NCBI GenBank assembly: GCA_001769655.1
Contig: MEPC01000034.1
Coordinates: forward strand, 45,599-109,598
From: Bacteroidetes bacterium RIFCSPLOWO2_12_FULL_37_12
Lineage (GTDB): Bacteria; Bacteroidota; Bacteroidia; 2-12-FULL-37-12
DNA length: 64,000 nt
Direction: 5' to 3'
The notes under the pieces are model-generated. The model searched no databases. It was given only the letters and a program-made list of their open reading frames with translations, and was not told the DNA's origin. Positions 23-62,431 of this stretch are shown here, one piece after another. Each line of letters starts with the position of its first letter. The first letter of the stretch is position 1. Position numbers and translations under genes: made by a program.

Positions 23-1067
23 GTGCCAAGGTAAAGCCAAAGGTAGAGCCAACCCCTTCGGTGCTTCTTACATTAATGGTCTGGTGATGTGCTTCTATTA
101 TATGTTTGACAATAGCCAATCCAAGTCCGGTGCCACCTTGTTCCCTGGAACGATTTTTGTCCACCCTGTAAAAACGCTCAAATAATCTGGGCAAATGTTC
201 CTGCGCAATCCCGATACCGTTATCCGAGATTTCCACCAGCACATTTTCATCCATATCATAAATTCCCACGAGGGTTTCACCGCTGGTACTACCATATTTT
301 ATAGAATTGATAATTAAATTATTCAACACCTGGCGTATGCGTTCCTTGTCTGCTGATACCATAAATACAGTGTGACACCCGGGTTTAAAATTCAATTTTA
401 TTTTATTATTCTCCGCCATCCGCAGTAGTGATTCAAATACTTCTGAAACCAACCCTGTAATATTAAATACTTCTTTTTCCATCCGGAATTCATAACTCTC
501 TAACTGAGAAATCAATTCAAGGTCTTCAATGATGGCGTTAAGGCGGTCAATATTTTGTGATGCTTTTTTTAAATAATCAGTACTAATTTTTGCCTCATTC
601 CAGCCATGGTCAATCAGGGTTTCGATATAACCCTGGATATTAAAAACAGGGGTTTTCAATTCGTGAGAAACATTGCTAAGAAATTCTTTTCTGTATTTTT
701 CAAGTTTTTTCAATTGTACAAATTCCTGCTCCTGGCTGGAAGTCCAACGGAGCACTTCTTCTTCCATTTCGGAGATAATATCTTTATTCATAGCATCTTT
801 TTCAGGTGTATTGCTTTTCTGACTCTTCCGTTGATGAATTGTTTTATAGATTAATTTTATTTTCCTATAGATAAAACGATTCAGCGCTGTTGAAAAAATA
901 ATATAGGTTGCGATGAAAATTAAAAACGGAGTAGCAATAATGTATATGAGATAATAATTTTCATGGAAAAAATGATGAAGTATAAACAAAACAAGAAACA
1001 AAAAAGCGGCAGTAATAACCGAACCAAGGATGACGATTTCGGAAGGGGTTGGATTTTTGTTGTACAT
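15..1067 (-). CDS. PhoR-like sensor histidine kinase
   Basis: Membrane sensor kinase that should autophosphorylate on His and pass phosphate to the response regulator encoded immediately upstream. From the start chosen here there are two N-terminal transmembrane segments (about residues 11-32 and 39-58), a charged linker, a HisKA domain with phospho-acceptor His at about residue 135 in the motif SNVSHELKTP, and a HATPase domain with an N box, DNGIGI G1 motif and GGTGLGL G2 motif. No periplasmic sensor or PAS domain is obvious, so the input signal is unknown. An in-frame ATG at 1103 would add 12 residues encoded by a REP-like repeat; the ATG at 1067 (MYNKNPTPSE) gives the usual Bacteroidota PhoR N-terminus and is preferred. 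Known family members of this type often sense phosphate or envelope state; that role is inference. Confidence 0.9.
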   Translation of the reverse strand: MYNKNPTPSEIVILGSVITAAFLFLVLFILHHFFHENYYLIYIIATPFLIFIATYIIFSTALNRFIYRKIKLIYKTIHQRKSQKSNTPEKDAMNKDIISEMEEEVLRWTSSQEQEFVQLKKLEKYRKEFLSNVSHELKTPVFNIQGYIETLIDHGWNEAKISTDYLKKASQNIDRLNAIIEDLELISQLESYEFRMEKEVFNITGLVSEVFESLLRMAENNKIKLNFKPGCHTVFMVSADKERIRQVLNNLIINSIKYGSTSGETLVGIYDMDENVLVEISDNGIGIAQEHLPRLFERFYRVDKNRSREQGGTGLGLAIVKHIIEAHHQTINVRSTEGVGSTFGFTLAQI

Positions 1068-1094
1068 AGAGAGGGGTAATAAATTTATTATGAA

Positions 1095-1137
1095 AGACCT
1101 CACCCCAGCCCCTCTCCAAAATGGAGAAAGGGTTAGG
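1095..1137. repeat. REP-like hairpin (CCCCTCTCC...GGAGA)
   Basis: Copy of a dispersed element containing AGACCTCACCCC followed by an imperfect inverted repeat (CTCTCCA-AAA-TGGAGA). Related copies lie at 7375-7415 and, inverted, at 41258-41299. This copy sits between the response regulator and kinase genes and could modulate read-through or message stability between them. Confidence 0.7.
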
Positions 1138-1172
1138 ATTCCGTCATACCATATGTGCCATTTGCGGCACTA

Positions 1173-1853
1173 TCAGAAATCAAAACTGTATCCGGTGCCT
1201 TTGCTGGTTTTTATATTTTTTTCTCCGATTTTTTCACGAAGGTTTCTAACATGTACATCGAGGGTGCGGTCACCAACTACAATTTCATTTCCCCAAATCC
1301 TGGAATAAATTTCTTCACGGACAAAAACCTTCCCTGGTTTTGTCGCCAGCAACATGAGTAAATCAAATTCTTTTTTGGTTAGTTCCACTTCCGTACTTTT
1401 TTTAGTAACCTTTCTTTCTTCGGGAAATATTTTTAAATCTCCGAGTGAAATAGTTTGAGCCAAGCCGCCTTCTTTTCTTTTACGTTTCAACAGGGCATTA
1501 ATTCTTGCTGAAAGTACTCTTGGTCGTACCGGTTTTGTAATATAATCATCGGCACCAACATTAAATCCCGCAAGTTCGGAGTATTCCTCATTACGAGCTG
1601 TAAGAAAAATGATAAAGGTATCATCAAACTCTTTTTCTTCTCTCAATTTACGGCAAACTTCCACTCCATCCATTCCACTCATCATGATATCGAGTATGAT
1701 TAGCGCAGGATGAATGGTGTGTGCCACTTCGAGCGCTTTTTTTCCATCTGAAGCAGTAAAAATATTGTATCCTTCTTTCTTAAGATTGTAAGAAACAAAC
1801 TCAAGAATATCGGGTTCGTCGTCAACAATGAGTATTTTGGGTGTAGATATCAT
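1173..1853 (-). CDS. OmpR/PhoB-family response regulator
   Basis: Two-component transcription factor of 226 residues. The receiver domain (about 1-125) has the acidic pair D11/D12, phospho-acceptor D55 in LDIMMSGMDG, T85 and K107 in ITKPVRP. The DNA-binding domain (about 130-226) is an OmpR-type winged helix, with LTKKEFDLL in the first half and a recognition region around DRTLDVHVRNLREKIG. It lies between the rhomboid gene (one base between its ATG and the rhomboid stop) and the cognate kinase gene, in one minus-strand operon. All receiver catalytic residues are present, so it should be phosphorylation-controlled. Confidence 0.93.
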   Translation of the reverse strand: MISTPKILIVDDEPDILEFVSYNLKKEGYNIFTASDGKKALEVAHTIHPALIILDIMMSGMDGVEVCRKLREEKEFDDTFIIFLTARNEEYSELAGFNVGADDYITKPVRPRVLSARINALLKRKRKEGGLAQTISLGDLKIFPEERKVTKKSTEVELTKKEFDLLMLLATKPGKVFVREEIYSRIWGNEIVVGDRTLDVHVRNLREKIGEKNIKTSKGTGYSFDF

Positions 1854-2481: not shown

Positions 2482-2484
2482 GGG

Positions 2485-2580
2485 TTAGAAATTAGTCATT
2501 GGTCATTGGAAATTAGACATTGATCCTTGGTAATTGGATGTTGGATGTTAGTAATTTGAAATTAGTAATTGGATTTGAAT
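2485..2580. repeat. Degenerate intergenic repeat (ATTAGTAATTGGA type)
   Basis: AT-rich array of related short units (TTGGTCATTGG, TTGGTAATTGG, TTGGATGTTGGATGTTAG) upstream of the rhomboid operon. Similar strings recur upstream of the genes at 31231 and 33906. No promoter motif was identified inside it. Confidence 0.5.
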
Positions 2581-2951: not shown

Positions 2952-2960
2952 GGGGAAGTA

Positions 2961-3529: not shown

Positions 3530-3534
3530 GGGTG

Positions 3535-3659: not shown

Positions 3660-5048
3660 TCAAAACGCTGCCTCTTTCGGCGCTCGTGGGAATGGAATAA
3701 CATCTCTGATATTACTCATACCGGTAGCAAACAAAACTAACCGTTCAAAGCCAAGTCCGAAGCCGGAATGAACACAGGTTCCAAACCGCCGTGTATCGAG
3801 ATACCATCCTAAATTTTTTTCGTCTATTTTCATTTCACGGATCCGGTTTACTAATTTCTCGTAATTCTCCTCCCGCTGTGAACCACCAATGATTTCACCG
3901 ATACCGGGAAAAAGAATATCCATGGCGCGAACTGTTTTTCCATCTTCGTTTTGTTTCATGTAAAATGCTTTGATATCTTTAGGATAGTCGGTAAGAATAA
4001 CCGGTGTTTTAAAATGTTCTTCTACCAAAAAGCGTTCGTGTTCTGATTGCAGGTCGGAGCCCCACTGAATTTGTAATTCAAATTTTTTTCCGGATTTCTG
4101 AATAATATCCATGCCTTCCGTATAGGTAAGATGCCTGAAATTATTTTGTGTCACGAACCTCAGTTTTTCAATCAGGGTTGAATCATACATTTTATTCAAA
4201 AATTCCAGGTCTTCTTTATTATTATCCAGCACAAACTGTATAAGATATTTCAAAAAATCTTCCGCCAATCTCATATTATCTTTCAGGTCATAGAATGCCA
4301 TTTCCGGTTCAATCATCCAGAATTCAGAAAGGTGGCGGGTGGTATTGGAATTTTCCGCCCGAAAAGTAGGACCAAAGGTGTAAATTTCAGAAAGCGCAAG
4401 TGCACCGAGTTCACCTTCCAACTGACCCGAAACGGTCAGATACGTTTCTTTCCCGAAAAAATCTTTTGCGAAATCAATATCCCCGTTGGGGGTTTTAAGA
4501 GGATTTTTCAAATCCATTGCGGTGACACGAAACATAGCGCCTGCTCCTTCACAATCAGAGCCGGTAATAATAGGAGTGTGCAAATAATAAAATCCGCGTT
4601 TATGAAAAAATTCATGAATGGCATACGCCAGGGAATGGCGTATGCGAAAAACGGCGCCGAACGTATTGGTACGGAAGCGCAAATGTGCAATTTCACGCAG
4701 AAACTCAAGGGAATGTCCTTTTTTCTGAAGGGGATAAACGGCGGGATCCGAAGCGCCAAGAATCTCAATGCTGTCTGCCTGAATTTCCACCGGTTGTCCG
4801 GAGCCCGTGGATGCCACTAACTTTCCAGTGACACTGATGCAGGCACCTGTTTGAGCCGACATTAATAATTCTTTGGGAAATTTTTGTGCATCCGCAACAA
4901 TTTGCAGGTTGGCAAGACAAGAGCCATCATTTAAGGCGATAAAACTTACATTTTTACCGGTACGGTTACTGCGAACCCAGCCCTTGGAAGTGACTTCCTG
5001 AGAAACGGGAGAGGTAGAGAGAAGGGATTTGATTTTGGAGTGGGGCAT
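3660..5048 (-). CDS. asnS: Asparagine--tRNA ligase
   Basis: Class II aminoacyl-tRNA synthetase that charges tRNA-Asn in the cytoplasm. At 462 residues it has the usual bacterial AsnRS length. The N-terminal OB-fold anticodon-binding domain covers about 1-115 ([21 protein letters not shown]). The catalytic domain carries motif 2 ([19 protein letters not shown]) and motif 3 ([15 protein letters not shown]), and ends with the typical DVIPFPRAP. The FWMIEPE context separates it from AspRS. It contains three copies of the GTGWCAC motif (4149, 4522, 4828). Divergent from rpoN. Confidence 0.96.
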
Positions 5049-6710: not shown

Positions 6711-7363
6711 AACGTACAATAAATAACTATATCAATACACGTATTGCAAAAACTTTGTCGGTCGTTTTTCATCCTTTGCTGATGCCGACTTATCTATATG
6801 CCATTTTATCGGGTGTTATTCCGGGAATTTCTACTTCCGGTGGGATTACCGGTTTCATTCAAAGAGATGCTGTGTATATGATTTTGCTGCTGATGTTTTT
6901 GGTCACCTTCCTTCTGCCTTTGATTTGTGTCATTCTGCTTTTCAAAACCATCCGTTTTTCAAAACTCGAATTAGGCGATAAATCTCAACGCATTGTCCCT
7001 TTATTTTATACCACCCTTTTTTATATACTGAACTTATACATGTTTTCCAGGCAGTTTTCGTTCGGCGATATTTTTATCCGCATTCTTGCAGGAATCACCG
7101 CGGCGGTGATTGTAACGTTTATCCTTTCGTTTTTCAGTAAAATCAGTTTGCATTCTGTGGGGGCGGGAGGTCTTATGGGGTTTTTATTTTTCTTCCGATT
7201 TTATCTGCCGCATTTATTACCATTGTGGATTTTTTGTGTGGCAGTGTTACTTGCCGGTTTAATAGTTTCCGCGCGGCTTGCTTTGCAGTGTCACACTTTG
7301 AAGGAGGTAACGCTTGGGTTTTTGGTGGGGATGTGTGGGGGTGGGGCGTTGGGCTGGGGGTGA
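6689..7363 (+). CDS. PAP2-like integral membrane protein
   Basis: Predicted polytopic membrane protein of 224 residues with about five to six hydrophobic helices. The N-terminal SVVFHPLLMPTYLYAIL and the C-terminal ARLALQCHTLKEVTLGFLVG resemble the PAP2/undecaprenyl-diphosphatase-related family commonly found in Bacteroidota; the C-terminal His would correspond to the SR...H motif. The classical KXXXXXXRP first motif is not clear, so catalytic activity is doubtful. Homologues usually start a few residues before the FHPLLMPTY segment; here the only upstream ATG is inside the tandem repeat, giving an unusual MVRWLD leader. Separated from rpoN only by the repeat, so co-transcription is possible. 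Confidence 0.7.
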   Translation: MVRWLDGERTINNYINTRIAKTLSVVFHPLLMPTYLYAILSGVIPGISTSGGITGFIQRDAVYMILLLMFLVTFLLPLICVILLFKTIRFSKLELGDKSQRIVPLFYTTLFYILNLYMFSRQFSFGDIFIRILAGITAAVIVTFILSFFSKISLHSVGAGGLMGFLFFFRFYLPHLLPLWIFCVAVLLAGLIVSARLALQCHTLKEVTLGFLVGMCGGGALGWG

Positions 7364-7867: not shown

Positions 7868-8281
7868 ATGAAATCAAAATTATTCTTAGTATGCATTATA
7901 CTTTTTCCAGTCCTTTTAATGGCACAGGAAAATAGTTCATCATCCAAAATAAATAAAACCGACCGCAAAGGGCGCAAGACCGGTTGGTGGCAGTATTATC
8001 ACGCAAATTCAACGACAGTTGCCACGGAAGGAACATACATAAAAGGTATGCGGGATGGAGAGTGGAAAGAATACACGAAAGATGGAAAATTACAACAGGT
8101 TGGTTTTTTTAAAGAAGACAAGTTCAGTGGCACCTGGAAATATTTTGATGCGAATGGAAAAGTTGTTAATGAACGTTCCTATAAGGATGGTAAATTAGAT
8201 GGGGAGAACAGGTCGTATAGTCCGGATGGGAATTTGTTGAAGGTTACTGTATTTAAGGGTGGGAATGAGGTGAAGAAATGA
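7868..8281 (+). CDS. Secreted MORN/YwqK-type repeat protein
   Basis: 137 residues with a signal peptide (about 1-19, ending VLLMAQ). The mature protein has four to five MORN/YwqK-like units of about 23 residues with the W..Y....G....G.Y..G..DGEW pattern, for example [20 protein letters not shown] and [11 protein letters not shown]. Such repeats form extended beta-sheets; in Bacteroidota they are mostly periplasmic or surface proteins of unknown role, often labelled YwqK-family antitoxin by automatic annotation. No toxin partner is adjacent, so an antitoxin role is not supported here. Confidence 0.8.
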
Positions 8282-8953: not shown

Positions 8954-11860
8954 CTAATGCGCCTCCAACCAATTTTTCCCCCAGCTAATTTCCACCTCAA
9001 GTGGCACTTTCAATACAAGTGCGTTCTTCATACCGTTTTCAACTAAGGGACGCAAAATATTAATTTCATCTTCCGGCACATCAAAAACCAATTCATCGTG
9101 TACTTGCAGAATCAGCCGTGATTGTAATTTAGTGTCACTGTTATTTTTTCCGTAATGCTGAATCTGAGTGTGAATCTGGATCATTGCCAGCTTAATCATA
9201 TCGGCGGCAGTTCCCTGTATGGGAGCGTTGATGGCATTGCGTTCGGCAAAACCCCGTTGCGTTTGATTGCGCGAATTAATATCCCTCAAATACCTTCTCC
9301 TTCCCAGCATGGTTTCCACGTACCCGAATGTGCGCGCTTTTTCAATGACGGCATCCATGTATTTCTTAATACCCGGATATTGCGCAAAATACGATTCAAT
9401 GATCATTCCTGCTTCTGTTTTCGGGATGCCAAGTCGCTGAGAAAGTCCAAAGGCAGAAATACCATAAATGATTCCGAAGTTCACCATCTTAGCCCTGCGC
9501 CTCATTTCTCCATCCACTTGCTCGGGAGCTACATTGAAAACTTTGGATGCCGTGGCAGTATGAATATCCTGCCCTTCACAAAATGCTTCAATCATGTTTT
9601 TATCTTCGCTCACCGATGCCATTATCCGCAATTCAATTTGTGAATAATCTGCTGACATCAACACCCATTTTTCCTTTCGGGGAATAAATGTTTTTCTCAC
9701 TTCCTTTCCTTTTTCGGTGCGAATGGGAATATTCTGAAGGTTCGGATTATTTGAACTTAATCTTCCGGTTGATGCCACTGCCTGATTGTATGTAGTATGA
9801 ATTCTTTTATCGTTTTTATTTACCATAAGCGGAAGCGTGTCAACGTAAGTTGATTTTAACTTCTGATATTGACGGTAGTCCAGAATTTTTTGCACGACTT
9901 CGTGTTTATAAGAAAGCCGCGTGAGTATTTCTTCTCCGGTGGCATATTGCCCTGTTTTTGTTTTTTTAAGATTTGATTCGAGCTTCATGACTTCAAACAA
10001 AACGTGGCCCAATTGTTTTGGGGAAGCAATATTAAACTTAACCCCTGCGTGTTTGTAAATTTCTTTTTCTGTCTTTTCACTTTCATTTTCCAGCCATTGG
10101 GAATATTCTTTTAATGCGGGAATATCAACGGCGGCGCCTTCTTCCTCCATGTCTGCCAACACTTTTATAAGTGGGATTTCCACTTCTTTAAATAATTTTT
10201 CCAAGTCGGATTCCTTCAGCAAGGGCTTAAAAATTTCTTTTAACTGAAAAGTGACATCGGCATCTTCGGCTGAATACTCTGCCACTTTTTCCAGGGGAAC
10301 GTCTTCCATTTTTCCCTGCGATTTTCCTTTTTTCCCAATGAGTTCTTCAATGGAAACGGGGGCATAGTTAAGATATTTTGCCGACAACGAATTCATGTTG
10401 TGCCGTTGGTCTGGTTCCAGCAAATAATGCGCAAGCATGGTATCAAAAAATTCTCCTTTTAACTCAATCCCATGATTCAGAAGAATCCGGTAATCGAATT
10501 TTATGTTTTGTCCGATTTTTCCGATATGTTCATTTTCTAATACAGGTTTTAATTCGTTCAATATCTCTTTTGTGTCACTGTTATCTTTAGAAAATGGAAG
10601 ATACCATGCTTCTCCTTTTTTCCAGCAAAACGACAACCCGATTAATCCGGCTGATTTCGGGTCTAAGGAAGTGGTTTCGGAATCCAGACAAAATTCTTTT
10701 TGCTTTGACAATAACTCCATCAGCTTATTTCGTTTCTCTTTGGTGTCACAGCAGGTGTAATTGTGGGGAGTGTTGTGGATGGTGGTTAGGAGCGGGGAAG
10801 GATCGGTATTTTGCCATGCGGAATCATCTTGTGCCATTTTTTCACCGTCGCTGACTGATGAGAATAATGTGTTTGTGTCACTATCTGATTGCTGGAAAAA
10901 AAGTGTTTGTACGGGTTTTGCCTGCTTAGCTGTTTCTGTTTTTTGAGCGCCACTAAATAAATCGCCCGAGGATTGTGTTTCAAAAAGTCGTTTGCTTAAG
11001 GTGCGAAATTCCAGTTGATTGAAAAGGTCTTTTACTTTCTGTTCGGAAATGTTTCTTAACTGTAAATTTTCGAGTGTCACTTTAATTTCCACATCGGTTT
11101 TAATGGTAGCAAGCCGTTTTGACAATAAACCCTGCTCTGCAAATTGCATGATATTGCTTTTCAGATTTTTCTTTCCTTCCAATTTGTCCACGTTTGCAAT
11201 TAGTTCTTCGAGGGAAGGAAACCGGTTTATTAACTCTTTGGCTGTTTTTTCTCCAATGCCGGGAATGCCGGGAATATTATCAGATGCATCACCTATCATG
11301 CCCAGCATGTCGGTCACTTGTGTTACCTTTTGTATTCCCCATTTTTCCAACACTTTTTTAGTATCCCATACGTCCACACCCGTTCCCAGATAGGATGGTT
11401 TGAATAAAAAAATATCCTCTTCAATTAATTGTCCATAATCCTTATCCATGGTCATGATGTACGTAATAAACCCTTCCGATTTTGCTTTTTTAGCAAGTGT
11501 TCCGAGGACATCGTCTGCTTCTACTCCGTCTATGGCGAGCAGTGTCACATTAAATGCTTCTGTTATTTTATGAATGAAAGGAATTGCTGAAATGATATCT
11601 TCGGGGGTTTCCTGCCGTTGGGCTTTGTATTCCTTATATTCCAGATGGCGGAATGTAGGGGCGGGGGTATCAATTGCCACTGCGATATGGGTAGGTTTTT
11701 GATTGTGGATGACGTCGAGGAGAGAATTGGTAAATCCGAAAATGGCGCCTGTGTTCAAGCCGTAGGAAGTGATGCGGGGGTTTTTCGAAAAGGCGAAATG
11801 GGCGCGGTAAACAAGCGCCATACCGTCGAGGAGGAAGAGCTTGGGGCGGGAGGATTGCAT
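8954..11860 (-). CDS. polA: DNA polymerase I
   Basis: Repair and Okazaki-fragment polymerase of 968 residues with all three domains. The 5'-3' exonuclease covers about 1-300 (GVEADDVLGTLA, GDASDNIPGIPGIGEKTA). A 3'-5' exonuclease has its acidic residues intact (FCLDSETTSLDP, GQNIKFDYRIL, YSAEDADVTF), so proofreading is expected. The polymerase domain has motif A SADYSQIELRIMA, the O-helix RRRAKMVNFGIIYGISAFG and motif C QVHDELVFDV. Six GTGWCAC motifs fall in this gene; three encode S-D-T and one C-D-T, several of them in variable linkers. Divergent from truB, with a -7 element at 11889-11896. Confidence 0.97.
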   Translation of the reverse strand: MQSSRPKLFLLDGMALVYRAHFAFSKNPRITSYGLNTGAIFGFTNSLLDVIHNQKPTHIAVAIDTPAPTFRHLEYKEYKAQRQETPEDIISAIPFIHKITEAFNVTLLAIDGVEADDVLGTLAKKAKSEGFITYIMTMDKDYGQLIEEDIFLFKPSYLGTGVDVWDTKKVLEKWGIQKVTQVTDMLGMIGDASDNIPGIPGIGEKTAKELINRFPSLEELIANVDKLEGKKNLKSNIMQFAEQGLLSKRLATIKTDVEIKVTLENLQLRNISEQKVKDLFNQLEFRTLSKRLFETQSSGDLFSGAQKTETAKQAKPVQTLFFQQSDSDTNTLFSSVSDGEKMAQDDSAWQNTDPSPLLTTIHNTPHNYTCCDTKEKRNKLMELLSKQKEFCLDSETTSLDPKSAGLIGLSFCWKKGEAWYLPFSKDNSDTKEILNELKPVLENEHIGKIGQNIKFDYRILLNHGIELKGEFFDTMLAHYLLEPDQRHNMNSLSAKYLNYAPVSIEELIGKKGKSQGKMEDVPLEKVAEYSAEDADVTFQLKEIFKPLLKESDLEKLFKEVEIPLIKVLADMEEEGAAVDIPALKEYSQWLENESEKTEKEIYKHAGVKFNIASPKQLGHVLFEVMKLESNLKKTKTGQYATGEEILTRLSYKHEVVQKILDYRQYQKLKSTYVDTLPLMVNKNDKRIHTTYNQAVASTGRLSSNNPNLQNIPIRTEKGKEVRKTFIPRKEKWVLMSADYSQIELRIMASVSEDKNMIEAFCEGQDIHTATASKVFNVAPEQVDGEMRRRAKMVNFGIIYGISAFGLSQRLGIPKTEAGMIIESYFAQYPGIKKYMDAVIEKARTFGYVETMLGRRRYLRDINSRNQTQRGFAERNAINAPIQGTAADMIKLAMIQIHTQIQHYGKNNSDTKLQSRLILQVHDELVFDVPEDEINILRPLVENGMKNALVLKVPLEVEISWGKNWLEAH

Positions 11861-11952: not shown

Positions 11953-12633
11953 ATGACCCTTCCTTTATACAACCCCGCGCTTCCCGATTCCGGCACAATG
12001 TTGCTTGTTGACAAACCCATCGGGTGGACTTCCTTCGATGTTGTCAATAAAATCAGATATGCCACAGGTTTTCCGAAAGTAGGGCATGCCGGGACACTAG
12101 ACCCCTTAGCGACAGGGTTACTGATAGTTTGTTGTGGAAAAATGACTAAAAAAATAAATGATTTTATGGGATTGGAAAAAGAATACACCGGCAGTTTCGT
12201 CCTTGGTAAAACAACCCCTTCATTAGACCGTGAGACAGCGTTTTCTGAAAATTTTCCAATCGCACATATTTCCAATGATATGATTAGTGACACTGTTAAA
12301 AAATTTACGGGAGAAATTGAACAAATACCTCCGGATTACTCTGCTATAAAAACCGGTGGCGCTCCTGCTTATAAGAAAGCACGAAAAGGAATAGCTTTAA
12401 ATCTTGCCCCGCGCAAAGTTTTTATTCATGAATTTGAAGTGATTGAAATATTGATGCCTGAAATCAAGTTTCGCGTTGTGTGTTCAAAAGGAACCTATAT
12501 CCGGAGTTTGGCGCGGGATTTTGGAAAAGCGCTTGGTTCGGGGGCTTATCTTGCGGAGTTGCGTAGAACGCGGATTGGAAAGTATCGGGTGGAGGATGCT
12601 ATTAGTATGGTGGACGTGGAGGGGAGAAAGTGA
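11953..12633 (+). CDS. truB: tRNA pseudouridine(55) synthase
   Basis: Converts U55 in the T-loop of tRNAs to pseudouridine. The catalytic Asp is D50 in VGHAGTLDPLATG, and the family motifs DKPIGWTSFDVV, KTGGAPAYKKAR and CSKGTYIRSLARDFG are present. Length is 226 residues from the ATG at 11953. An ATG at 11896 would add 19 residues that do not resemble family N-termini and would overlap the polA promoter element, so it was rejected. One GTGWCAC motif at 12287 encodes S-D-T. Confidence 0.95.
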   Translation: MTLPLYNPALPDSGTMLLVDKPIGWTSFDVVNKIRYATGFPKVGHAGTLDPLATGLLIVCCGKMTKKINDFMGLEKEYTGSFVLGKTTPSLDRETAFSENFPIAHISNDMISDTVKKFTGEIEQIPPDYSAIKTGGAPAYKKARKGIALNLAPRKVFIHEFEVIEILMPEIKFRVVCSKGTYIRSLARDFGKALGSGAYLAELRRTRIGKYRVEDAISMVDVEGRK

Positions 12634-17267: not shown

Positions 17268-18089
17268 ATGAGTTTCTTTCGCAAAATCATTCCCTTTCTT
17301 CGCTTTCATCTTCTAAGCATTAATCTGCGGAAATCAAAAAATCCCTTTCTCCGGTTCCTTTATCGGGAAATCATCTCGCAGGAAAAGGATTTTTATGATT
17401 TTATGAAAATTGAAAAATTATGCACTCAATTAGAAAATTCAAAAGCAGAACTATTGCCTTCTACTCATGGCGCCGGTTCCCTAACAATTAATCCTAATCA
17501 AAAAACAACAGTTGGTAAAATTGCCCGTGCCACTTCTATAAGCCGGAATGGAGGTAAAATTTTATTTCGGCTGAGAAATTATTTGCAACCGGATGTTACA
17601 TTTGAATTGGGTACTGGAACCGGTATTAGCACTTTATATCTTTATGCAGGATGTAAAAAAGGTAAATTGGTGACTTTTGATGGGCATAAGGAGCTGGTGG
17701 ATGTCGCTAAATCAGTATTAGGTTTAAGTCCACTCCCACATAACCACGCTACAGACCTAAGCCAGAGTTTGAAATCTCCTTTCCACGCTAATACTGTGTC
17801 ATTCAGAGATGGGGATATTTTTCAAAATCTTCCCGAAGAACTTTCAAAAATTTCTACATTGAATCTTTTATTTATAGATGCCGCTCACACTTGCGAATCC
17901 ACACTCTCCTTTTTTAATTTGTGCTTACCGAAAATCGACGAGAATTCTGTGTTTGTAATTCATGATATTCATTGGTCTAAGGGAATGGAAAAGGCGTGGG
18001 AAGAGATTACAAAGAATCCTGCAGTGTCACTCTCATTGGATTTGTTTGAGATGGGGTTGGTGTTTTTTGGGAATCACTCTTCCCGCTGA
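17268..18089 (+). CDS. Class I SAM-dependent methyltransferase
   Basis: 273 residues. After an N-terminal helical region, the Rossmann methyltransferase core has motif I FELGTGTGISTLYL, an acidic residue at the end of strand 2 (VTFDGHKELVDVA), a motif IV-like LLFIDAAHTCESTLSFF and VFVIHDIHWSKGMEKAWEEI. The ID-A-H and H-D-I-H pattern resembles metal-dependent O-methyltransferases (Methyltransf_24 type). The substrate is unknown. Its 3' end overlaps the convergent DUF2851 gene by 83 bases. A GTGWCAC motif lies in the overlap (18024). Confidence 0.85.
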   Translation: MSFFRKIIPFLRFHLLSINLRKSKNPFLRFLYREIISQEKDFYDFMKIEKLCTQLENSKAELLPSTHGAGSLTINPNQKTTVGKIARATSISRNGGKILFRLRNYLQPDVTFELGTGTGISTLYLYAGCKKGKLVTFDGHKELVDVAKSVLGLSPLPHNHATDLSQSLKSPFHANTVSFRDGDIFQNLPEELSKISTLNLLFIDAAHTCESTLSFFNLCLPKIDENSVFVIHDIHWSKGMEKAWEEITKNPAVSLSLDLFEMGLVFFGNHSSR

Positions 18090-47503: not shown

Positions 47504-49609
47504 TTAATCTGAAATAGTTTTGCGAAAATAAAATCCCGCTTTCGCAGTATCCCCAAGCGTTTTGTATAACTGATATGCATTGTTTATAATATTTCTGTCT
47601 GTAGGATTAAACCGGTGCGCCTCCTCGTATTGTTCCGCCGCTTTGAAATATTCTTTTCGCTGATGATAAACAACCGCCAGATTTCCGTGTGCCATTCCGT
47701 TTTGTGGAGTTAGCGCTATCACTTTTTCAAAATATTTCTGCGCCTGCTCAAGGTTTCCACTATTTAATGAAATAACGCCAAGATTATTATACGCATTCGC
47801 ATAATCCGGTTTTAGCTGTATCGCTGAATTAAAATCAGCTAATGCGGAATCAGTGACACCAACCTCATGGTAGCAACATCCCCGGTTATATAATGCTAAT
47901 TCAAGTTTGGAATCTAATTCCAGCGCTCTCGTGAAATCAGAAATCGCCTTGCGATAGTGCTTTGTTTTGTAATAAACATCTCCGCGATTATTCCATGCGC
48001 TGGCATAATCCGGTTGCATGGTAATGGCTTTGTCGAAATCATTTACCGCATTTTCAAATTCGCCCAATGCAGAAAAAGCCAGTCCGCGGTTATAATAACT
48101 CATCATGTTATCAGGATTTAATTTCAAAGCAACTTTAAATTCTTCCACCGACTCTTTATAAAATCCCAGACGGTAATGCGCATTACCGCAGTTCTCCCAG
48201 GCAAGTGCATAATCGGGTTTTAGCTGTACCGTTTTTAAAAAATCTTTCAGCGCCAATTCATAATTTTCCATTCGGTAATATTCATCTCCGCGGTTATTAT
48301 AGCTATCCGGAAAATCCGGAAACCTTTCCATGACATGATTCCACAATGTAAAACTTGTTTTCCAGATTTTACATTGTTCGCGGGTAAGAAAAATAAAATA
48401 ACCTGTATAAATGATTAAACCGCAAAAAACCAATATCCAAAAACTTTTATTCTTTTTCAGAAATAGTTGTGTCCTGTCATACAGCCACGGTCCTACCGCT
48501 ATAAAAAAACCAAGCGAGGGAAGATAGGAATATCTGTCACTCATGATGGCGCCGCCTACGGGTAAGAATTGAAGAACCGGTAACAAGGCAACAATAAATA
48601 ATACCAATCCTCCGGTTACAAGTACGGGTATTTTTTTTCTAAAAAAAATAATGCATGCAACACACGAAATAATCAATACCGGAAATAACCAGAAATAATA
48701 GGGTAACTGTTCGCCGGTTTTAGTAGGATATGGGTAAAATGCCGATAATTCCCACGGAAATATTAATTTGATCATATATTGCAGAATGGAATACGAGGCA
48801 AGACATCCCCGTTCCAAAATTGTAAAATCAGGCATAATAAATAATGCTTTCGCAGATTCCTGCGCTTTAATGGCTACAATCCCTATGATGACAGATACAA
48901 GCAGGAATGGGATTTTATTTAACAGCAACGTAGCATAATTTAACTTTTTCTTTTTGGGTTCATTGCGCACTTGTGTGCCACTATTCTTCTTTGAGTGTAT
49001 TTGCAAAAAATCAAATACGAATAATATTAATGGTATGGTCATCGCCATTGCCTTGCTTAAACAGGATAAAATAAACCATACAAACGCTATAAAATAATAT
49101 AACTTTTTTTCCGATTTCATAAATTTTAAATAGAAAATAAACGTCAGAATAGCAAACATCATAAACAAAACATCTTTCCGTGACGAAATCCATGCCACTG
49201 ACTCCACATGAAAAGGATGAATTCCAAAAAACAACCCACCGCATATACTGAGTGGAAAGTTTCCCGTAAGCAGATTAATTAAAATAACAATCAACAAGGT
49301 GTTAATAAGATGAAAGAGCAGATTATTAAAATGATAGGGAAATGGATTTTCATCAAAAAAATGATATTCAACCATATAAGAAAAAGAAGTGACCGGATGA
49401 TAATTTCCAAAATAAATTTTTGAAAACAAGGTAGTGACACTTTCAACGTTCAGCGATTTAATATAGGGGTTCCGTTGAATATAATGATTATCGTCCCAGT
49501 TGGTAAAACCGTTTTTCAGGCAGGGTCCGTACGAAATCAATACGGTAATCACAAGAACTATGAACCAGATGGGTTTATTGATATTTCTTTTTTTGGCTGG
49601 GGTTTCCAT
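47504..49609 (-). CDS. TMTC-like membrane protein with C-terminal TPRs (1 of 3)
   Basis: 701 residues from the ATG at 49609 (METPAKKRNINKPIW); the ATG at 49672 lies in repeat DNA. The N-terminal half has about ten membrane helices with the GT-C pattern: FTNWDDNHYIQRNPYI (the WDD in the first periplasmic loop is the acidic catalytic-type motif) and a FGIHPFHVESVAWISSRKDVLF stretch as in TMTC/PMT proteins. The C-terminal half has seven to eight TPRs (about 445-701). GT-C enzymes of this kind transfer mannose or other sugars from lipid carriers to proteins; activity here is inference. First of three paralogues in a row. Confidence 0.85.
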   Translation of the reverse strand: METPAKKRNINKPIWFIVLVITVLISYGPCLKNGFTNWDDNHYIQRNPYIKSLNVESVTTLFSKIYFGNYHPVTSFSYMVEYHFFDENPFPYHFNNLLFHLINTLLIVILINLLTGNFPLSICGGLFFGIHPFHVESVAWISSRKDVLFMMFAILTFIFYLKFMKSEKKLYYFIAFVWFILSCLSKAMAMTIPLILFVFDFLQIHSKKNSGTQVRNEPKKKKLNYATLLLNKIPFLLVSVIIGIVAIKAQESAKALFIMPDFTILERGCLASYSILQYMIKLIFPWELSAFYPYPTKTGEQLPYYFWLFPVLIISCVACIIFFRKKIPVLVTGGLVLFIVALLPVLQFLPVGGAIMSDRYSYLPSLGFFIAVGPWLYDRTQLFLKKNKSFWILVFCGLIIYTGYFIFLTREQCKIWKTSFTLWNHVMERFPDFPDSYNNRGDEYYRMENYELALKDFLKTVQLKPDYALAWENCGNAHYRLGFYKESVEEFKVALKLNPDNMMSYYNRGLAFSALGEFENAVNDFDKAITMQPDYASAWNNRGDVYYKTKHYRKAISDFTRALELDSKLELALYNRGCCYHEVGVTDSALADFNSAIQLKPDYANAYNNLGVISLNSGNLEQAQKYFEKVIALTPQNGMAHGNLAVVYHQRKEYFKAAEQYEEAHRFNPTDRNIINNAYQLYKTLGDTAKAGFYFRKTISD

Positions 49610-49810: not shown

Positions 49811-51604
49811 TCAGCCACCCACCAACGATTTTAATTGCGAAATATACATCAGAATGTTCTTATCATCCGGATAAAATTTCAATGCCTTTTCATAATAGAT
49901 GATTGCGTTTTTGAAATCATTCATATTATAGTAAACCGCTCCTATGTTTTTATACAATTCTCCGTATTCAGGCGCCAACTCCAGCCCCTTCTTAAAATAA
50001 AAAATAGCGCTGTCCGGCTTGCCAAGCTGAAAACAAACGACCCCCAGATTATTCAGCGGGTCCGAATACGAAGGGTCTATTTCAACAGCACGTTTTAAAT
50101 CCGGATACGCCTCCTTGTTTTTTCCCAACAGATGAAGGCAATATCCCCGGTTATTCAATGCGTGTGCGTAATTTGGTTTTGAATTAATTGCTTTATCCAG
50201 ATCGGCAATGGCTAAATCAAACTGACCCCGTTGTATATATTCGTTTGAACGGTTATAATAACCCAGTGCAAATGTTGGGAATTGTTTCAAGGCAACCGTC
50301 CAGAGAGTGACACTGTCTTTCCATAGTGTGCAGTAATAACGGCTATATAAACTGAATCCTAAAAGGTAAATCGAGAAAACCGTAAATATAACTTTTTGCG
50401 TGAACTTATTTTTGTAATTGTCCGCAAATTTTTCTACTCCATAAGCGAAAATAAAAAAAATTCCCAGCGAAGGAAGGTACGAATATCTTTCCGCTACAAT
50501 GGCTTCACCCACTTGCACAACCTGTATCACAGGAAGAATGGTAACCAGATAAAAAAACATACAAAACAAACCGAGACGAAAGTTTTTCCTGTACATCACA
50601 AAAATTATACTGAACAAAAGAATGGTAAGCAATGGATACATCCAATAATGAAATGGTAACACGCCCGCTGTTTTATCAGGATATGGATAATAGGGAGAAA
50701 GATTAAATGGCGCTAATAATTTCATCGGATAAAATACCAATCCATAAGATACAAAAATAATTCTGTCCCACAAGGTATGATCTGAAAAAATATTCACTGC
50801 CGCCGCCGATTTCTGTGCCATTAAAGCAAGTATTCCAAATAATAGAGTGATAACAATGAAAGGTAATTTATTTATCCAAAAACTAAAACTAAATTTCTTA
50901 CTGTCCCACACCTCGCTTTCGCTCTGCACTCGCTTTCCCGATCTCTCAATTTCCCTTCCCACTCTCAAATAATCCAATAACACCAACACCGCAGGAAAAC
51001 TCACCGCCATAGCTTTAAAAAGACAGGAAAAAACAAACGCCACCACCGCTATGAACAAAAAACTTGTTTTATGTTCTTCCCGAAAACGAAGGTAATTGAG
51101 CAATCCCAGCAGATAAAAAAACATAAACATCACATCTTTTCTTTCCGAAACCCATACTACCGATTCCACATGCAGGGGATGAACGGCAAATAAAAAACCA
51201 CACAGTACGCTTATCCGGAAATTTTGACTCAGTTTTTGAATGAAAAAAATTACGAGTATGGAATTAACGATATGAACTATAAGATTAATTACATGATATG
51301 GGAAGGGATCTAATTTAAAAAAATGATAATCTATGGCGTAAGCCAGCATCGTAAAAGGATGGTAATTGCCTATGTAAAACGTGGTGAAATAATGTTTCAG
51401 GTTTTCGAAATTCAGAGGCGCGATGTGCTTATTCTGGTTAATATAATGGTTATCATCCCAATTGGTGAGCTGGTTGTGTAAACCGGGAAAAAACACCCAG
51501 ATGGTCAGTGCAATCAGCGCCAAAATCCAAAGCCAGTGGTTGTTACTTTTCCGACTTTGAATATCCCTGCTGTGGTTTGATTTTTTGATTTCTGCTTTTT
51601 TCAT
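49811..51604 (-). CDS. TMTC-like membrane protein with C-terminal TPRs (2 of 3)
   Basis: 597 residues from the ATG at 51604 (MKKAEIKKSN); an upstream ATG at 51634 lies inside a TGGTTAGA-type repeat. About ten membrane helices with the same landmarks as its paralogues, LTNWDDNHYINQNKHI and FAVHPLHVESVVWVSERKDVMF, then four to five TPR units (about 440-595). A short charged loop GREIERSGKRVQSESEVWDSKK (about 230) interrupts the membrane part. Fewer TPRs than copy 1. Predicted sugar transferase of the GT-C fold; substrate unknown. Confidence 0.83.
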   Translation of the reverse strand: MKKAEIKKSNHSRDIQSRKSNNHWLWILALIALTIWVFFPGLHNQLTNWDDNHYINQNKHIAPLNFENLKHYFTTFYIGNYHPFTMLAYAIDYHFFKLDPFPYHVINLIVHIVNSILVIFFIQKLSQNFRISVLCGFLFAVHPLHVESVVWVSERKDVMFMFFYLLGLLNYLRFREEHKTSFLFIAVVAFVFSCLFKAMAVSFPAVLVLLDYLRVGREIERSGKRVQSESEVWDSKKFSFSFWINKLPFIVITLLFGILALMAQKSAAAVNIFSDHTLWDRIIFVSYGLVFYPMKLLAPFNLSPYYPYPDKTAGVLPFHYWMYPLLTILLFSIIFVMYRKNFRLGLFCMFFYLVTILPVIQVVQVGEAIVAERYSYLPSLGIFFIFAYGVEKFADNYKNKFTQKVIFTVFSIYLLGFSLYSRYYCTLWKDSVTLWTVALKQFPTFALGYYNRSNEYIQRGQFDLAIADLDKAINSKPNYAHALNNRGYCLHLLGKNKEAYPDLKRAVEIDPSYSDPLNNLGVVCFQLGKPDSAIFYFKKGLELAPEYGELYKNIGAVYYNMNDFKNAIIYYEKALKFYPDDKNILMYISQLKSLVGG

Positions 51605-51694: not shown

Positions 51695-53767
51695 CTACCT
51701 CCCCAACGCCGCTCTCAATTTCTCCAAATTCTCCCTCACATTTTTATTATCAGGCAATAGTTCCAGCGACTTCATGTAATGCTCAAGTGCCAATTCATAT
51801 TTCCCAAGATTATGCTCTACCGCGCCAAGATTTCCATAAGCCGCCCCATGCCTTGGATCTAATGACACTACTTTTTCAAAACATTCCTGCGCTTCTGCAA
51901 ATTGTCTTTTCTCAAAATAGATAACTCCCAGATTATTCAGCGCATCTTTATGGCTTGCCTCAAGTGCAATGGTTTTTTTATATGCATTCTTTGCATTTTC
52001 TTTCTCGTCTATCATATAATAACAAACCCCCAGGTTGTACCAGTTTGGGGGAGTATCTTCCAAAATGGCAATGCTTTTTTTGTATTCCTCAATGGCAATC
52101 ACTAAATATCTTTTCCGCAACTCAGGATTTCTCTCCACTTCTCCTTTTACGCGGAATTGGTCTGCATATCCTGCATGCGTCCGGAAACTATTTGGCGAAT
52201 TCTTCACTCCTGCCGCAAACAAGGTAACGTTATTTTTCCAATCAGGATTACGCGAAATAGTCATTGTAGAAAATATCATTACGATTACTGAAATGATTAG
52301 AATAAAAAATATGTTACCACTCTTTTTTATATTGTTTCCTGTTTCATTCTTTTTAAAATCCTTTCCTGCTTCATTCTTTTTTATATCGCTTCCTGTTTCA
52401 TTCTTTTTTATATCCTTTCCTGTTTCATTCTTTTTTATATCCTTTCCTGTTCCGTCACTTTTGCCCCGTTGAAAAATAAGTTGTTTCGCTCTTTCCAGCA
52501 ATAGTGGAAGTCCTATACAAAATCCCACCGAGGGTAAAAATAAAAACCGTTCGGCAAAAGACGCTGAAATAAGAAAGAATAAATTGGAGACCGGCGATAG
52601 TGTCACTAAGAAAAAAATCACACAATAGAGAAGTGCATCTTTTTTCAATAAAAAAAACATTCCATAGAGGAAAAGAGTCAAAATGCCTGTAAAATTAATA
52701 ATGGTAACCGCATCGCCCCAACCTCTTGCGGGAATCTGATTGAATGAATAATCATGCGATAAGGGATGAGGATAAAAAAGCATGCTCAGGTATTTTCCAA
52801 GCAAACATATTTTTGAGGGAATCATCACTGATAAACTTTTTGCCGCCACCAGGGAATTATTGATAAGCTTCATTTCATTCCCGCGGGATTTGTCAAGCAC
52901 TTCTGCGCGGAGCAACAAATACACCAGAACCACAACGCCCAACCCGGCTATAACTTTAATCAATGACAAATACTTTTTTCCCCTAAAAAACAAAAGTGTC
53001 ACCGGAATCATCACAGAAAAAGTAATACCGGTTTCTTTCGTAAGTACTGCCATAAAAAAAAACACCATCATCATCAGGTATGAACTGATTTTCTCCTTGT
53101 CAAAATAATGCAATGCAGATGATAAACTCAGTATCGCAAACATAAAACAAAGAATTTCATCCCGGCTTTTAATATTGGCGACCACCTCCGTATGTATGGG
53201 GTGCGTAATAAAAAGAAAAACCATGGAAAGTATAATGATTAATGTTGATTGGTTGCCCGCATGGGATTGTGAAAGGAAATTTTTCTTTTCAATGGGAGAA
53301 GTGTTTGTCTTGCGTGAAATCTGGGCAAATTCCTTTCTTAAACCACCTCCTGAACTCAATGCAAATAAGTTCAACAACATCCAATAAAACAACACACAGG
53401 AGAATCCATAAAGTAGTACATTAATCAAATGATGTGTCTTCGGAGAATTTCCAACTATTCCAACCTCTACCGCCATCATGGCAATGATCAACGGACGATA
53501 TACACTGCTATTATCGCGATCAAAACCATACGTGTAACTATGTTGAAAAATTTCTGAAATGCCACCGGTTCCTTTTTGAACCAGATAATTCTTTTTGGTA
53601 ATCACATCATCATCAAACGCATATTCATGGTTGAGTGTGTTTGAATAAATCAAAAAAGCCGTTATGAAAATGATGATTTCCGGAAGAAAAAATCTCGTTG
53701 TTTTTTGGGAAGTCCGTAAAGATGCTTCCGTTGGTATTATTTTTTTATCTTTTTTGTTTGCCTTCAT
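51695..53767 (-). CDS. TMTC-like membrane protein with C-terminal TPRs (3 of 3)
   Basis: 690 residues. Membrane half with FDDDVITKKNYLV (FDDD instead of WDD, so the acidic motif is retained) and FITHPIHTEVVANIKSRDEILCF; the latter is the TMTC-type conserved loop. A run of 9-residue repeats (NETGKDIKK and variants, five units, about 440-485) is inserted between the last membrane segments. Four TPRs end the protein. This is the most diverged of the three. Two GTGWCAC motifs. Function as for copies 1 and 2, inferred. Confidence 0.83.
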   Translation of the reverse strand: MKANKKDKKIIPTEASLRTSQKTTRFFLPEIIIFITAFLIYSNTLNHEYAFDDDVITKKNYLVQKGTGGISEIFQHSYTYGFDRDNSSVYRPLIIAMMAVEVGIVGNSPKTHHLINVLLYGFSCVLFYWMLLNLFALSSGGGLRKEFAQISRKTNTSPIEKKNFLSQSHAGNQSTLIIILSMVFLFITHPIHTEVVANIKSRDEILCFMFAILSLSSALHYFDKEKISSYLMMMVFFFMAVLTKETGITFSVMIPVTLLFFRGKKYLSLIKVIAGLGVVVLVYLLLRAEVLDKSRGNEMKLINNSLVAAKSLSVMIPSKICLLGKYLSMLFYPHPLSHDYSFNQIPARGWGDAVTIINFTGILTLFLYGMFFLLKKDALLYCVIFFLVTLSPVSNLFFLISASFAERFLFLPSVGFCIGLPLLLERAKQLIFQRGKSDGTGKDIKKNETGKDIKKNETGSDIKKNEAGKDFKKNETGNNIKKSGNIFFILIISVIVMIFSTMTISRNPDWKNNVTLFAAGVKNSPNSFRTHAGYADQFRVKGEVERNPELRKRYLVIAIEEYKKSIAILEDTPPNWYNLGVCYYMIDEKENAKNAYKKTIALEASHKDALNNLGVIYFEKRQFAEAQECFEKVVSLDPRHGAAYGNLGAVEHNLGKYELALEHYMKSLELLPDNKNVRENLEKLRAALGR
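52330..52455. repeat. In-frame 27-bp tandem repeat
   Basis: Five units of about 27 bp (consensus CCTGTTTCATTCTTTTTTATATC on the plus strand) inside TMTC-like gene 3, encoding Asn-Glu-Thr-Gly-Lys-Asp-Ile-Lys-Lys variants. In-frame and therefore able to expand or contract without breaking the gene. Confidence 0.85.
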
Positions 53768-59272: not shown

Positions 59273-60259
59273 ATGAAAAAAATAATTATTTTTCTTCCTG
59301 TGCTTTTCTTATTAACTAATCCGGTTTCAGCACAACTGGATTTGTTTTACCTGGTACCCCAACTTCCCACTACCGGATACCCTGATCTTCAAAATGGAAA
59401 CATAATTCAGTTTAATTTATTCTATGACAATTTTTTTGGAAAGGATTTTATTTTAAACGGTGGGGGTGCTTCTTTTGGCTGGAGAATTTCGTCTGAAAAA
59501 ATTTCTGCTGACATTGGGTTGGGTTTAATGATGCATGGTGGCACTATTCCGCATTATGATATTTCGTTAGGCAAAGAGATTGTTTCATCGTCAGGAACAC
59601 CTATTTCCATTCTGGAAAAACAAACTTCCCGCGGAACTATTTCTATTTTCTCATTAGTACCCATTCATTTGACGGGTACTTATTCCCTTGTTAAAAAAAG
59701 AAATTCTAATTTATTTTTATTAACGGGCGGTAGTGTTTTTTTACCGTTCGGAAGTGGAAATTTCCAACTTTCCGATACATCTGAAAAATCGTATAATTAT
59801 TTAATCACCACAGGTCCTCCTCCTGGTAGCGGTGGAAGCATAATGGGTTTTCTTTTAGCTGATGTGGGAACTCAATATGCATATCATTTTGGAAGTGCGG
59901 GCAGGGGATCATCCAACATAACTATTGCCCCTTATGTATTATTTTCATTGACCAAAAATTTTAATAAAGAAACCGGCTTAAGTGCAGAATTAAAATATTC
60001 TCAGGGAACTTCTTCGGTGCGTGATGGAGATTTTATCCGCATTTTTTCAGAATCATTAAACACAACTTTCACTTATGGCGTAGATATAATGTTTACTGAG
60101 AAATTTGGTATTGGATTAAACTTTTCACCTGGTTCATCTAAAAACGCAACGCTGACTGGGGGTCTAGGCACGCCCTCAGAAGGAGTGCAATTCAAAACAC
60201 TATCGTATGACAAGTTTATGGTTGTAATCCGATTTTATGGGGACTATATTGAGAGATAG
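59273..60259 (+). CDS. Hypothetical secreted/outer-membrane protein
   Basis: 328 residues with a signal peptide (about 1-20, ending NPVSAQ). The mature protein is beta-rich with alternating patterns (GNIIQFNLFYDNFFGKDFILNGGGASFGWRI, DIGLGLMMHGG, GVDIMFTEKFGIGLNFSPGSS) and ends KFMVVIRFYGDYIER, consistent with an outer-membrane barrel. No known family. Stand-alone gene between mnmG and a transposase remnant. Confidence 0.7.
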   Translation: MKKIIIFLPVLFLLTNPVSAQLDLFYLVPQLPTTGYPDLQNGNIIQFNLFYDNFFGKDFILNGGGASFGWRISSEKISADIGLGLMMHGGTIPHYDISLGKEIVSSSGTPISILEKQTSRGTISIFSLVPIHLTGTYSLVKKRNSNLFLLTGGSVFLPFGSGNFQLSDTSEKSYNYLITTGPPPGSGGSIMGFLLADVGTQYAYHFGSAGRGSSNITIAPYVLFSLTKNFNKETGLSAELKYSQGTSSVRDGDFIRIFSESLNTTFTYGVDIMFTEKFGIGLNFSPGSSKNATLTGGLGTPSEGVQFKTLSYDKFMVVIRFYGDYIER

Positions 60260-60839: not shown

Positions 60840-60870
60840 GCGCCGTTGAAAAACCTTGAAGATTATTTTT
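60780..60870. repeat. AACCTTGAAGGTTTT repeat element, copy 2
   Basis: Three copies of ACCTTGAAG(G/A)TT in about 90 bases (AACCTTGAAGGTTTTTTTTCG twice, then AAAAACCTTGAAGATT) adjacent to the transposase remnant. Confidence 0.65.
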
Positions 60871-61053
60871 CAAAGTAATTCGGAAAAGTTATTTTTGCCT
60901 GACTTTTCCAAATCAGGTCAACAAATTCTATAAAAAGATGTATTTACTTTTTTCTTGAATATGTTTTTCAGAAAATAACCAACTTTTATACACAAATTAT
61001 AAAAAATGGTGGATATTTGTGGGGGAATAGTTTTCTCTAAATTAATTGCAATT

Positions 61054-62226
61054 ATGAAACACTTTATTTTGATTTTGACCTTACTTTCGTTTGAAACCGC
61101 TTTAGGACAAGGTTCATGGGTAAAAAAAGCTGACTTTCCGGGAGGGGCAAGGAGTGAAGCGGCTGGTTTCGCCATTGGTTCTAAAGGATACATTGGAACT
61201 GGAAGGGATGCTAATATTGCCTATAAAGATTTTTGGGAATACAATCCGACGAATGATTCATGGACAAAAAAGGCTGATTTTGGAGGTTCTGAAAGGTTCA
61301 GTGCGGCAGCTTTTGCTCTGAAATCTATGGGAGTTCTCGGAACCGGAATAAAAACCACTGGTGCCGCTTTGTTCGATTGTTGGATATATGATCCCTCTAA
61401 TGACACCTGGAAAGGTACGGCTAATGTTGCTCAGGGTATCATCGGTGCCGCTTCTGCCTCCAATGGAGAAAAAGGATTTTTTGTTACAGGTATGGTGGGA
61501 ACCCAAAGTGATCAATTATGGATTTATGATACAACCACAACCTGGCTTTGGGACAGTTGGAAAAATTTCCCCGGTAATGCTAGGAATAGTTCCGCGGCAT
61601 TCGCCATCGGTTCAAAACTGTATGTGGGTACAGGTGCCGGGGGCGGTAGTGTCTATTTTAAAGATTTTTGGGAGTATGACATTCCCTCAGACACCTGGAC
61701 CCGAAAGGCAGATTTTCCGGGCGTGGCAAGGTATGGTGCCAGTGCATTTGCAATAGGGGAGAGGGGCTACATTGGGTTAGGATCTTCAGGCACTTTTCCT
61801 TATCAGAAGGACTTTTGGGAATATGATCCCAAAACAGATAAATGGAGACAGGTGGCTGACTTTGCCATCAATGGCAGATATTACTCAGTTTCATTTGTCA
61901 TCAATGGAAAGGCCTATGTAGGTACTGGTGCGTTCAGTGTTGATTTTTATGAGTTTACGCCCCCGGCGCCCGACGTCGGATTTGAAGAATTATCAACTTC
62001 AAGGATTCAACTGTATCCTGTACCTGCCATTGATAAGGTCTATTTTGATTTAAACAGCTATTACCATAACTCTTCATTCAGGTTAAGTAATGCATTGGGT
62101 CAGGTGTGTAAATCCGGGGTTATTACCGATCTTACCATAGACATTTCAGACCTGAAAGCAGGATTTTATTATATGCAGATTATGAGTGAGTCCGATAGAT
62201 ATCGGGGAATTGTAATCAAAAAATAA
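61054..62226 (+). CDS. Kelch-repeat protein with T9SS sorting domain
   Basis: 390 residues from the ATG at 61054 (MKHFILILTLLSFETALGQG), which starts a signal peptide; the ATG at 61006 adds 16 residues and is rejected. Six kelch-like units of about 50 residues (WVKKADFPGGARSEAAGFAIGSKGYIGTGRD..., FKDFWEYDIPSDTWTRKADFPGVARYGASAFAIGERGYIGLG) form a predicted beta-propeller. The C-terminal about 75 residues (LYPVPAIDKVYFDL...GFYYMQIMSESDRYRGIVIKK) form a type A T9SS sorting domain, so it is secreted or surface-anchored. Likely binding or adhesion role; no catalytic residues identified. Confidence 0.88.
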   Translation: MKHFILILTLLSFETALGQGSWVKKADFPGGARSEAAGFAIGSKGYIGTGRDANIAYKDFWEYNPTNDSWTKKADFGGSERFSAAAFALKSMGVLGTGIKTTGAALFDCWIYDPSNDTWKGTANVAQGIIGAASASNGEKGFFVTGMVGTQSDQLWIYDTTTTWLWDSWKNFPGNARNSSAAFAIGSKLYVGTGAGGGSVYFKDFWEYDIPSDTWTRKADFPGVARYGASAFAIGERGYIGLGSSGTFPYQKDFWEYDPKTDKWRQVADFAINGRYYSVSFVINGKAYVGTGAFSVDFYEFTPPAPDVGFEELSTSRIQLYPVPAIDKVYFDLNSYYHNSSFRLSNALGQVCKSGVITDLTIDISDLKAGFYYMQIMSESDRYRGIVIKK

Positions 62227-62431
62227 TTTTGTAATTCCGCTGAATCTGCGGTGCATTCAATGAGGTCGGAAAAGATAGTTCCTCTAGTGTTGTCTACGAC
62301 CCGATAATAGACAAATGTGGTGACACTACCCAGTTTAATCCGCTTAATTTTGGTCTTCTTTACTCCGATACCCCGACACTCCCATACCCCGATACTTTTT
62401 TATCGCATTTACGTGTAATTAAAAATTCATG

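Follow-up and report, generated by a model that had tools for sequence, protein, structure and literature searches.

A highly over-represented interrupted palindrome, GTGNCAC, in a Bacteroidota genome

The window analysed here is a stretch of 64,000 nucleotides (C34:45599-109598) from a Bacteroidota genome of 43 contigs and 3.94 Mb, which is 97.9% complete. It has a G+C content of 37% and carries a type IX secretion system (T9SS) sorting domain, DUF2851, sigma-54, asnS and polA; the closest named relatives found for its PolA are about 50% identical and belong to the Crocinitomicaceae and other Bacteroidia. The subject of this work is a short palindrome that recurs throughout the window. The initial annotation had described it as GTGWCAC, with 35 copies, 13 of them extending to AGTGWCACT. 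All of these were found, and all coordinates but one were right (4149 should read 4148). The over-representation was borne out, but the expected numbers given at the time (about 5 and 0.5) were too high, since dinucleotide shuffles of the window yielded 2.5 ± 1.7 and 0.11. The location was indeed almost exclusively genic (33 of the 35 in called genes), though two sites (33827 and 62320) and not one lay outside, and the sites in genes used all three frames, in line with the "at least two" that had been noted. GTGSCAC contributes 15 further sites, bringing GTGNCAC to 50 copies in the window. They are listed below, with no strand assigned.

130..136, GTGSCAC site, absent from the initial annotation
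372..378, GTGWCAC site
1721..1727, GTGSCAC site
4148..4154, GTGWCAC site (initially given as 4149)
4522..4528, GTGWCAC site
4827..4835, AGTGWCACT full site
7288..7294, GTGWCAC site
8127..8133, GTGSCAC site
9000..9008, AGTGSCACT full site, polA
9131..9139, AGTGWCACT full site, polA
10572..10578, GTGWCAC site, polA
10743..10749, GTGWCAC site, polA
10875..10881, GTGWCAC site, polA
11073..11081, AGTGWCACT full site, polA
11542..11548, GTGWCAC site, polA
12286..12294, AGTGWCACT full site
17527..17533, GTGSCAC site, called intergenic
18023..18031, AGTGWCACT full site, DUF2851 gene
18190..18198, AGTGSCACT full site, DUF2851 gene
18285..18291, GTGWCAC site, DUF2851 gene
18404..18410, GTGWCAC site, DUF2851 gene
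18505..18513, AGTGWCACT full site, DUF2851 gene
18980..18986, GTGWCAC site, DUF2851 gene
19715..19721, GTGSCAC site
19919..19927, AGTGWCACT full site
20950..20958, AGTGSCACT full site
21173..21179, GTGWCAC site
21909..21915, GTGWCAC site
23084..23092, AGTGSCACT full site
23320..23326, GTGWCAC site
23607..23613, GTGSCAC site
25806..25814, AGTGWCACT full site, T9SS metalloprotease gene
25843..25851, AGTGWCACT full site, T9SS metalloprotease gene
26275..26281, GTGWCAC site
26767..26773, GTGSCAC site
27729..27737, AGTGSCACT full site
28143..28149, GTGWCAC site
31614..31622, AGTGWCACT full site
33827..33833, GTGWCAC site, intergenic
34072..34078, GTGWCAC site
38509..38515, GTGWCAC site, carA-like gene
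41361..41367, GTGSCAC site
47853..47859, GTGWCAC site
48975..48981, GTGSCAC site
49433..49441, AGTGWCACT full site
50306..50314, AGTGWCACT full site
52599..52607, AGTGWCACT full site
52996..53002, GTGWCAC site
59538..59544, GTGSCAC site
62320..62326, GTGWCAC site, intergenic

Using the reversed word as control for genome-wide counts, we found 1753 copies of GTGWCAC versus 189 in the whole genome. GTGNCAC occurred 2993 times versus 429 for its reversed word, CACNGTG, which amounts to 760 copies per Mb or one per ~1.3 kb, and the extended word AGTGNCACT occurred 943 times versus 38. Markov and shuffle tests were run on a genome sample consisting of the window and 60 further stretches (1.2 Mb in total). 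In this sample the excess over a second-order Markov model was 10.75-fold for GTGNCAC and 52-fold for AGTGNCACT. Under Markov models of orders 3 and 4, the two top-ranking 7-mers were GTGACAC/GTGTCAC and GTGCCAC/GTGGCAC, indicating that the centre is N; the W assigned initially does not hold, GTGSCAC being likewise enriched about 9-fold. The correct word is thus a core GTGNCAC, extended to AGTGNCACT. In a survey of the sample that covered palindromes whose arms measured 2-4 bases and whose gaps measured 0-6, none with 20 or more expected copies exceeded 3.8-fold apart from those containing the motif.

We considered whether this excess might stem from codon usage, from repeated secreted proteins or from contamination of the assembly. 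The genes of giant repeat-rich secreted proteins do indeed hold numerous copies (one gene of 10 kb has 32 sites), and G+C-rich genes contain more sites. Yet, when synonymous codons were shuffled inside each gene, GTGNCAC remained 6.2-fold and AGTGNCACT 19-fold enriched, as compared with 1.04 for the reversed word, and dropping the repetitive secreted proteins left this unchanged (5.8-fold and 18-fold). Intergenic DNA, judged against its own second-order model, displayed a 7.7-fold and a 37-fold enrichment, respectively, the reversed control reaching 1.0-1.4-fold in these shuffle and intergenic tests. Furthermore, GTGNCAC sites in genes occupied all three reading frames, and none of the other Bacteroidota genomes searched showed the enrichment. 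The initial view that protein sequence alone is insufficient therefore stands, the excess having survived genome-wide Markov and codon-shuffle nulls and not being explained by one codon pair in one frame. The synonymous-shuffle and intergenic tests already refute a compositional or coding artefact, and an artefactual origin of any of these kinds is hardly credible.

The word is used at 31% of the tripeptides whose synonymous codons permit it; the two main classes were occupied at 33% and 29%, versus ~4.5% expected from codon usage. We also considered that the motif might displace conserved residues, but rejected this, as ortholog identity was the same at motif-coded and at other eligible tripeptides (0.36 versus 0.38, p 0.57). 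Residues under the motif being as conserved as those at other eligible positions, the drive acts mainly via synonymous change. With about 3,000 copies, some 10 times more than by chance, and about one third of the eligible gene positions occupied, the word is very probably read as a signal by some cellular protein.

The enrichment of variant words indicated which positions matter. Both half-sites were needed: two AGTG halves gave 52-fold, whereas GTGNNCAC was at 0.44-fold and CACNGTG at 0.86-fold. GTGCAC (0.46-fold) and GTGNNCAC were depleted, hence the one-base spacer is strict. Next to a perfect AGTG half, the enrichment depended on the other half in a graded manner (AGTG 52-fold, GGTG 18-fold, TGTG 10-fold, CGTG 8-fold, ACTG 6.5-fold and AATG 6-fold). 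A/T was preferred at the flanks; changes were tolerated to a graded extent at the outer bases and hardly at the inner G-N-C. When the codons of the motif were kept constant, the outer transition ATGNCAC was enriched 2.1-fold (z 22) and GCGNCAC 1.6-fold, in contrast to the inner near-misses GTANCAC (0.75-fold) and GTTNCAC (1.0-fold); the neighbours of the reversed control ranged from 0.92 to 1.11. The depletion of GGGNCAC is largely due to the avoidance of GGCC. If near-misses arose simply by mutational decay, all three transitions should be fed equally, and the asymmetry between outer and inner positions therefore points to a recognition that tolerates outer, but not inner, changes. Near-misses were enriched at the outer positions only, a gradation characteristic of binding sites.

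The word was then sought in 394 other genomes of the class and in 395 others from the phylum, the two samples overlapping; the relatives listed as available included none of the same order or family. GTGNCAC was clearly above its control in none of the 394 class genomes, the highest ratio with substantial counts being ~2.5, versus 7.0 in the genome of the window. None of the 395 genomes of the phylum sample had more than 92 copies of AGTGNCACT, versus 943 here; the runner-up was another Bacteroidota genome of 4.6 Mb (G517; 92 copies versus 15 reversed). Among the genomes sampled, the word is thus confined to the lineage of the window's genome. A high-G+C genus of the class that is rich in CACNGTG (2400-4500 per genome) was considered as a sister phenomenon and dropped, its G+C content being 63-68% and the excess at most 2.4-fold. 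Literature searches on the exact word returned nothing relevant.

The drive looks genome-wide. Site density in the genome sample was 0.89 per kb in genes and 0.54 per kb between them. Raw spacing was over-dispersed (coefficient of variation of the gaps 1.5), and the occupied fraction of eligible tripeptides rose from 9% in the G+C-poorest fifth of genes to 38% in the richest. After control for opportunity and G+C, and with three small contigs excluded, the dispersion between 20-kb stretches was still 1.7. Motif deserts of tens of kb with full restriction-site avoidance were considered as functional patterning, but they mostly vanished with the same kind of control (eligible tripeptides and G+C). 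Three small contigs, C7 (L007), C15 (L015) and C43 (L057), had no or nearly no GTGNCAC; C7 and C43 also lacked nearly all of the restriction-site avoidance and C15 part of it. They are probably foreign, recently acquired or mis-binned DNA.

The presence of sites throughout the chromosome, both genic and intergenic, and the dimer-type interrupted palindrome with graded half-sites would suit an abundant protein that organises or segregates the chromosome or acts in repair, requires densely placed binding sites and leaves the DNA unmodified. However, sites followed synonymous opportunity and G+C rather than an even spacing, no candidate protein was identified, and known segregation proteins bind tens of sites rather than thousands. 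We consider this explanation unlikely; the segregation role that was among the options listed initially has no specific support.

A palindromic 7-mer with a central N could also be what an active restriction-modification system recognises, and type II systems abound in this genome. The genome carries at least nine genes for methyltransferases that contain a PF01555 or PF00145 domain (L098-L112), several of them beside genes for endonucleases of the HindIII, EcoO109I-like, BanI, MjaI and MvaI/BcnI families. If GTGNCAC were such a site, it should be avoided like the palindromes of such systems. In the 1.2-Mb sample, AGNCT occurred 177 times versus 2142 expected (0.08-fold), GGCC 159 versus 1743 (0.09-fold), CATATG 27 versus 365 and GTATAC 19 versus 270 (both 0.07-fold); CTAG (0.19-fold), AAGCTT (0.30-fold), CAGCTG, CACGTG and GCWGC were also avoided. 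GTGNCAC shares with type II sites its palindromic form but is enriched, making this explanation very improbable. To our knowledge, AGNCT matches no restriction specificity that could be placed. Of note, the site-poor half of the window holds an Eco57I/PglX-like DNA methyltransferase gene (44284-47268, 994 aa), itself devoid of GTGNCAC, and two ATPase/TPR genes at 34702-38234.

We next weighed DNA uptake, the main rival, live if fairly unlikely. A competence type IV pilus or pseudopilus would prefer DNA with AGTGNCACT, and recombination would raise the word by molecular drive. This is how preferred uptake raises the DNA-uptake sequences (DUS) of Neisseria and the uptake signal sequences (USS) of Haemophilus. 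One site per 1.3 kb, a halo of graded near-misses and restriction to a single lineage resemble what is found with the Neisseriaceae DUS (GCCGTCTGAA and dialects) and the Pasteurellaceae USS (AAGTGCGGT core), which occur about once per kb. Pilus-type, ComEC and DprA genes are found here as in those families: a prepilin-PilB-PilC cluster lies on the window's contig, ~40 kb past the window end (L139:185-3392, i.e. C34 ~149-153 kb; prepilin, PilB/GspE ATPase and PilC/GspF), and the genome has genes for ComEC (L113) and DprA (L140). The prepilin matched the ComP family of DUS receptors with an E value of 1e-5 and 26.7 bits, below the cut-off of 27.3, and its structure model was of low confidence (predicted local distance difference test score 67, predicted template modelling score 0.37); the match may reflect only the general pilin fold.

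Several observations argue against uptake. Both half-sites are required and the word is palindromic, whereas we know of no DUS or USS that is. Unlike in DUS/USS genomes, there was no core-gene bias (conserved genes 6.6-fold, non-conserved 6.1-fold, the conserved set being small, with 106 genes) and no terminator pairing, gaps of less than 20 bases between sites not being in excess; intergenic density was also below genic density. Genomes of the class that lack an iterated word commonly have pilus genes: about one fifth of the class has a full-length PilB-type ATPase, and three PilB-bearing class genomes sampled at 20 kb showed no such word. PilT was not found, the genome having a single T2SSE-family match. 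In a more specific form of this proposal, AGTGNCACT would be a palindromic Bacteroidota uptake sequence, and DNA carrying it would be selected by a competence-pilus receptor that may consist of two ComP-like prepilins in a symmetric arrangement. We regard this as distinctly unlikely; if true, it would mean sequence-specific natural transformation with a two-fold symmetric signal in Bacteroidota, of which limited literature searches found no report.

GTGNCAC is a real, strong and lineage-specific iterated palindrome that behaves like the highly iterated palindromes (HIPs) of cyanobacteria. Among the options that the initial annotation had left unranked (HIP, uptake, methylation mark, segregation or repair), we tentatively favour, at a little under even confidence, a palindrome of the HIP kind that is read by a resident protein, likely a methyltransferase. 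This preference rests on the enrichment of GTGNCAC in a genome where restriction palindromes are avoided, together with the reported features of HIPs. In cyanobacteria these reach ~500-2500 copies per Mb, a range that includes the 760 per Mb observed here; one-off words of HIP1 deviate at the ends and not at the centre, and cyanobacteria with highly over-represented words are reported to encode one or more putative methyltransferases that could modify these words (Elhai 2015, PMC4390886). The likeness to HIP1 proposed initially was therefore apt as to density, palindromy and near-misses at outer positions. It further extends to the genic location, independence from protein sequence, a G+C content above that of the genome, a centre that is intolerant, sporadic occurrence by lineage, and a genome with many methyltransferases and avoided restriction sites. 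The differences are the host phylum, the odd-length interrupted word with a free centre and the soft preference for A/T at the flanks. The word is not HIP1 (GCGATCGC) itself, whose core CGATCG is depleted here (0.26-fold), and could only be an alternate HIP, such as GGCGCC, RCCGGY and GCSGC are in cyanobacteria (Elhai 2015, PMC4390886).

Under the HIP-type reading, AGTGNCACT would be a genome-wide mark, built up because a resident protein reads the interrupted palindrome. By analogy with cyanobacteria, the reader would most likely be a DNA methyltransferase or another dimeric DNA-binding protein. The copies might be kept by selection for the mark, in self or strand marking, repair or chromosome upkeep, or alternatively by a mark-directed repair favouring mutations that create sites. 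Both the nature of the reader and the mode of maintenance are speculative. Four observations weigh against this reading. None of the nine or more methyltransferase genes had an assignable GTGNCAC specificity. The flank preference (outer A 52-fold versus C ~8-fold, with the other half perfect) is softer than that of a typical methyltransferase site. The residual over-dispersion departs from the even spacing that a spacing-saturation model predicts. Finally, very-short-patch repair was not indicated, as a Vsr homologue was not found and the inner C-to-T near-miss was only mildly depleted.

Iterated palindromes are best known from cyanobacteria, where their function remains open. The present word adds an independent example from outside that phylum. 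With its different shape and its clean spectrum of near-misses, it allows one to test whether it is methyltransferases, repair or DNA uptake that iterated words follow. It would also be an entry point to the marking of self DNA in a lineage whose avoidance of restriction sites is unusually strong. Chi hotspots are likewise short, over-represented and mostly genic, but the known Chi sites are asymmetric and oriented, whereas GTGNCAC equals its own reverse complement apart from its free centre.

Other repeats were also observed in this genome. Short tandem arrays with units like CTATACCC or CTATACCT are dispersed, mostly outside called genes (L001, L008, L048, L063, L064, L067), and CCCTATAC occurred 169 times in the 1.2-Mb sample. 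One stretch (L060) contains a local array of CCTAATCCGTAAA-like repeats, with 25 copies of CCTAATCCG. A dispersed element, CCTCACCCCAGCCCCTCTCCAAAA...TGGAGAGG, has an inverted repeat and resembles repetitive extragenic palindromic (REP) elements; it lies mostly outside called genes and is present in L003, L005, L041, L053 and L067 as well as in the window.

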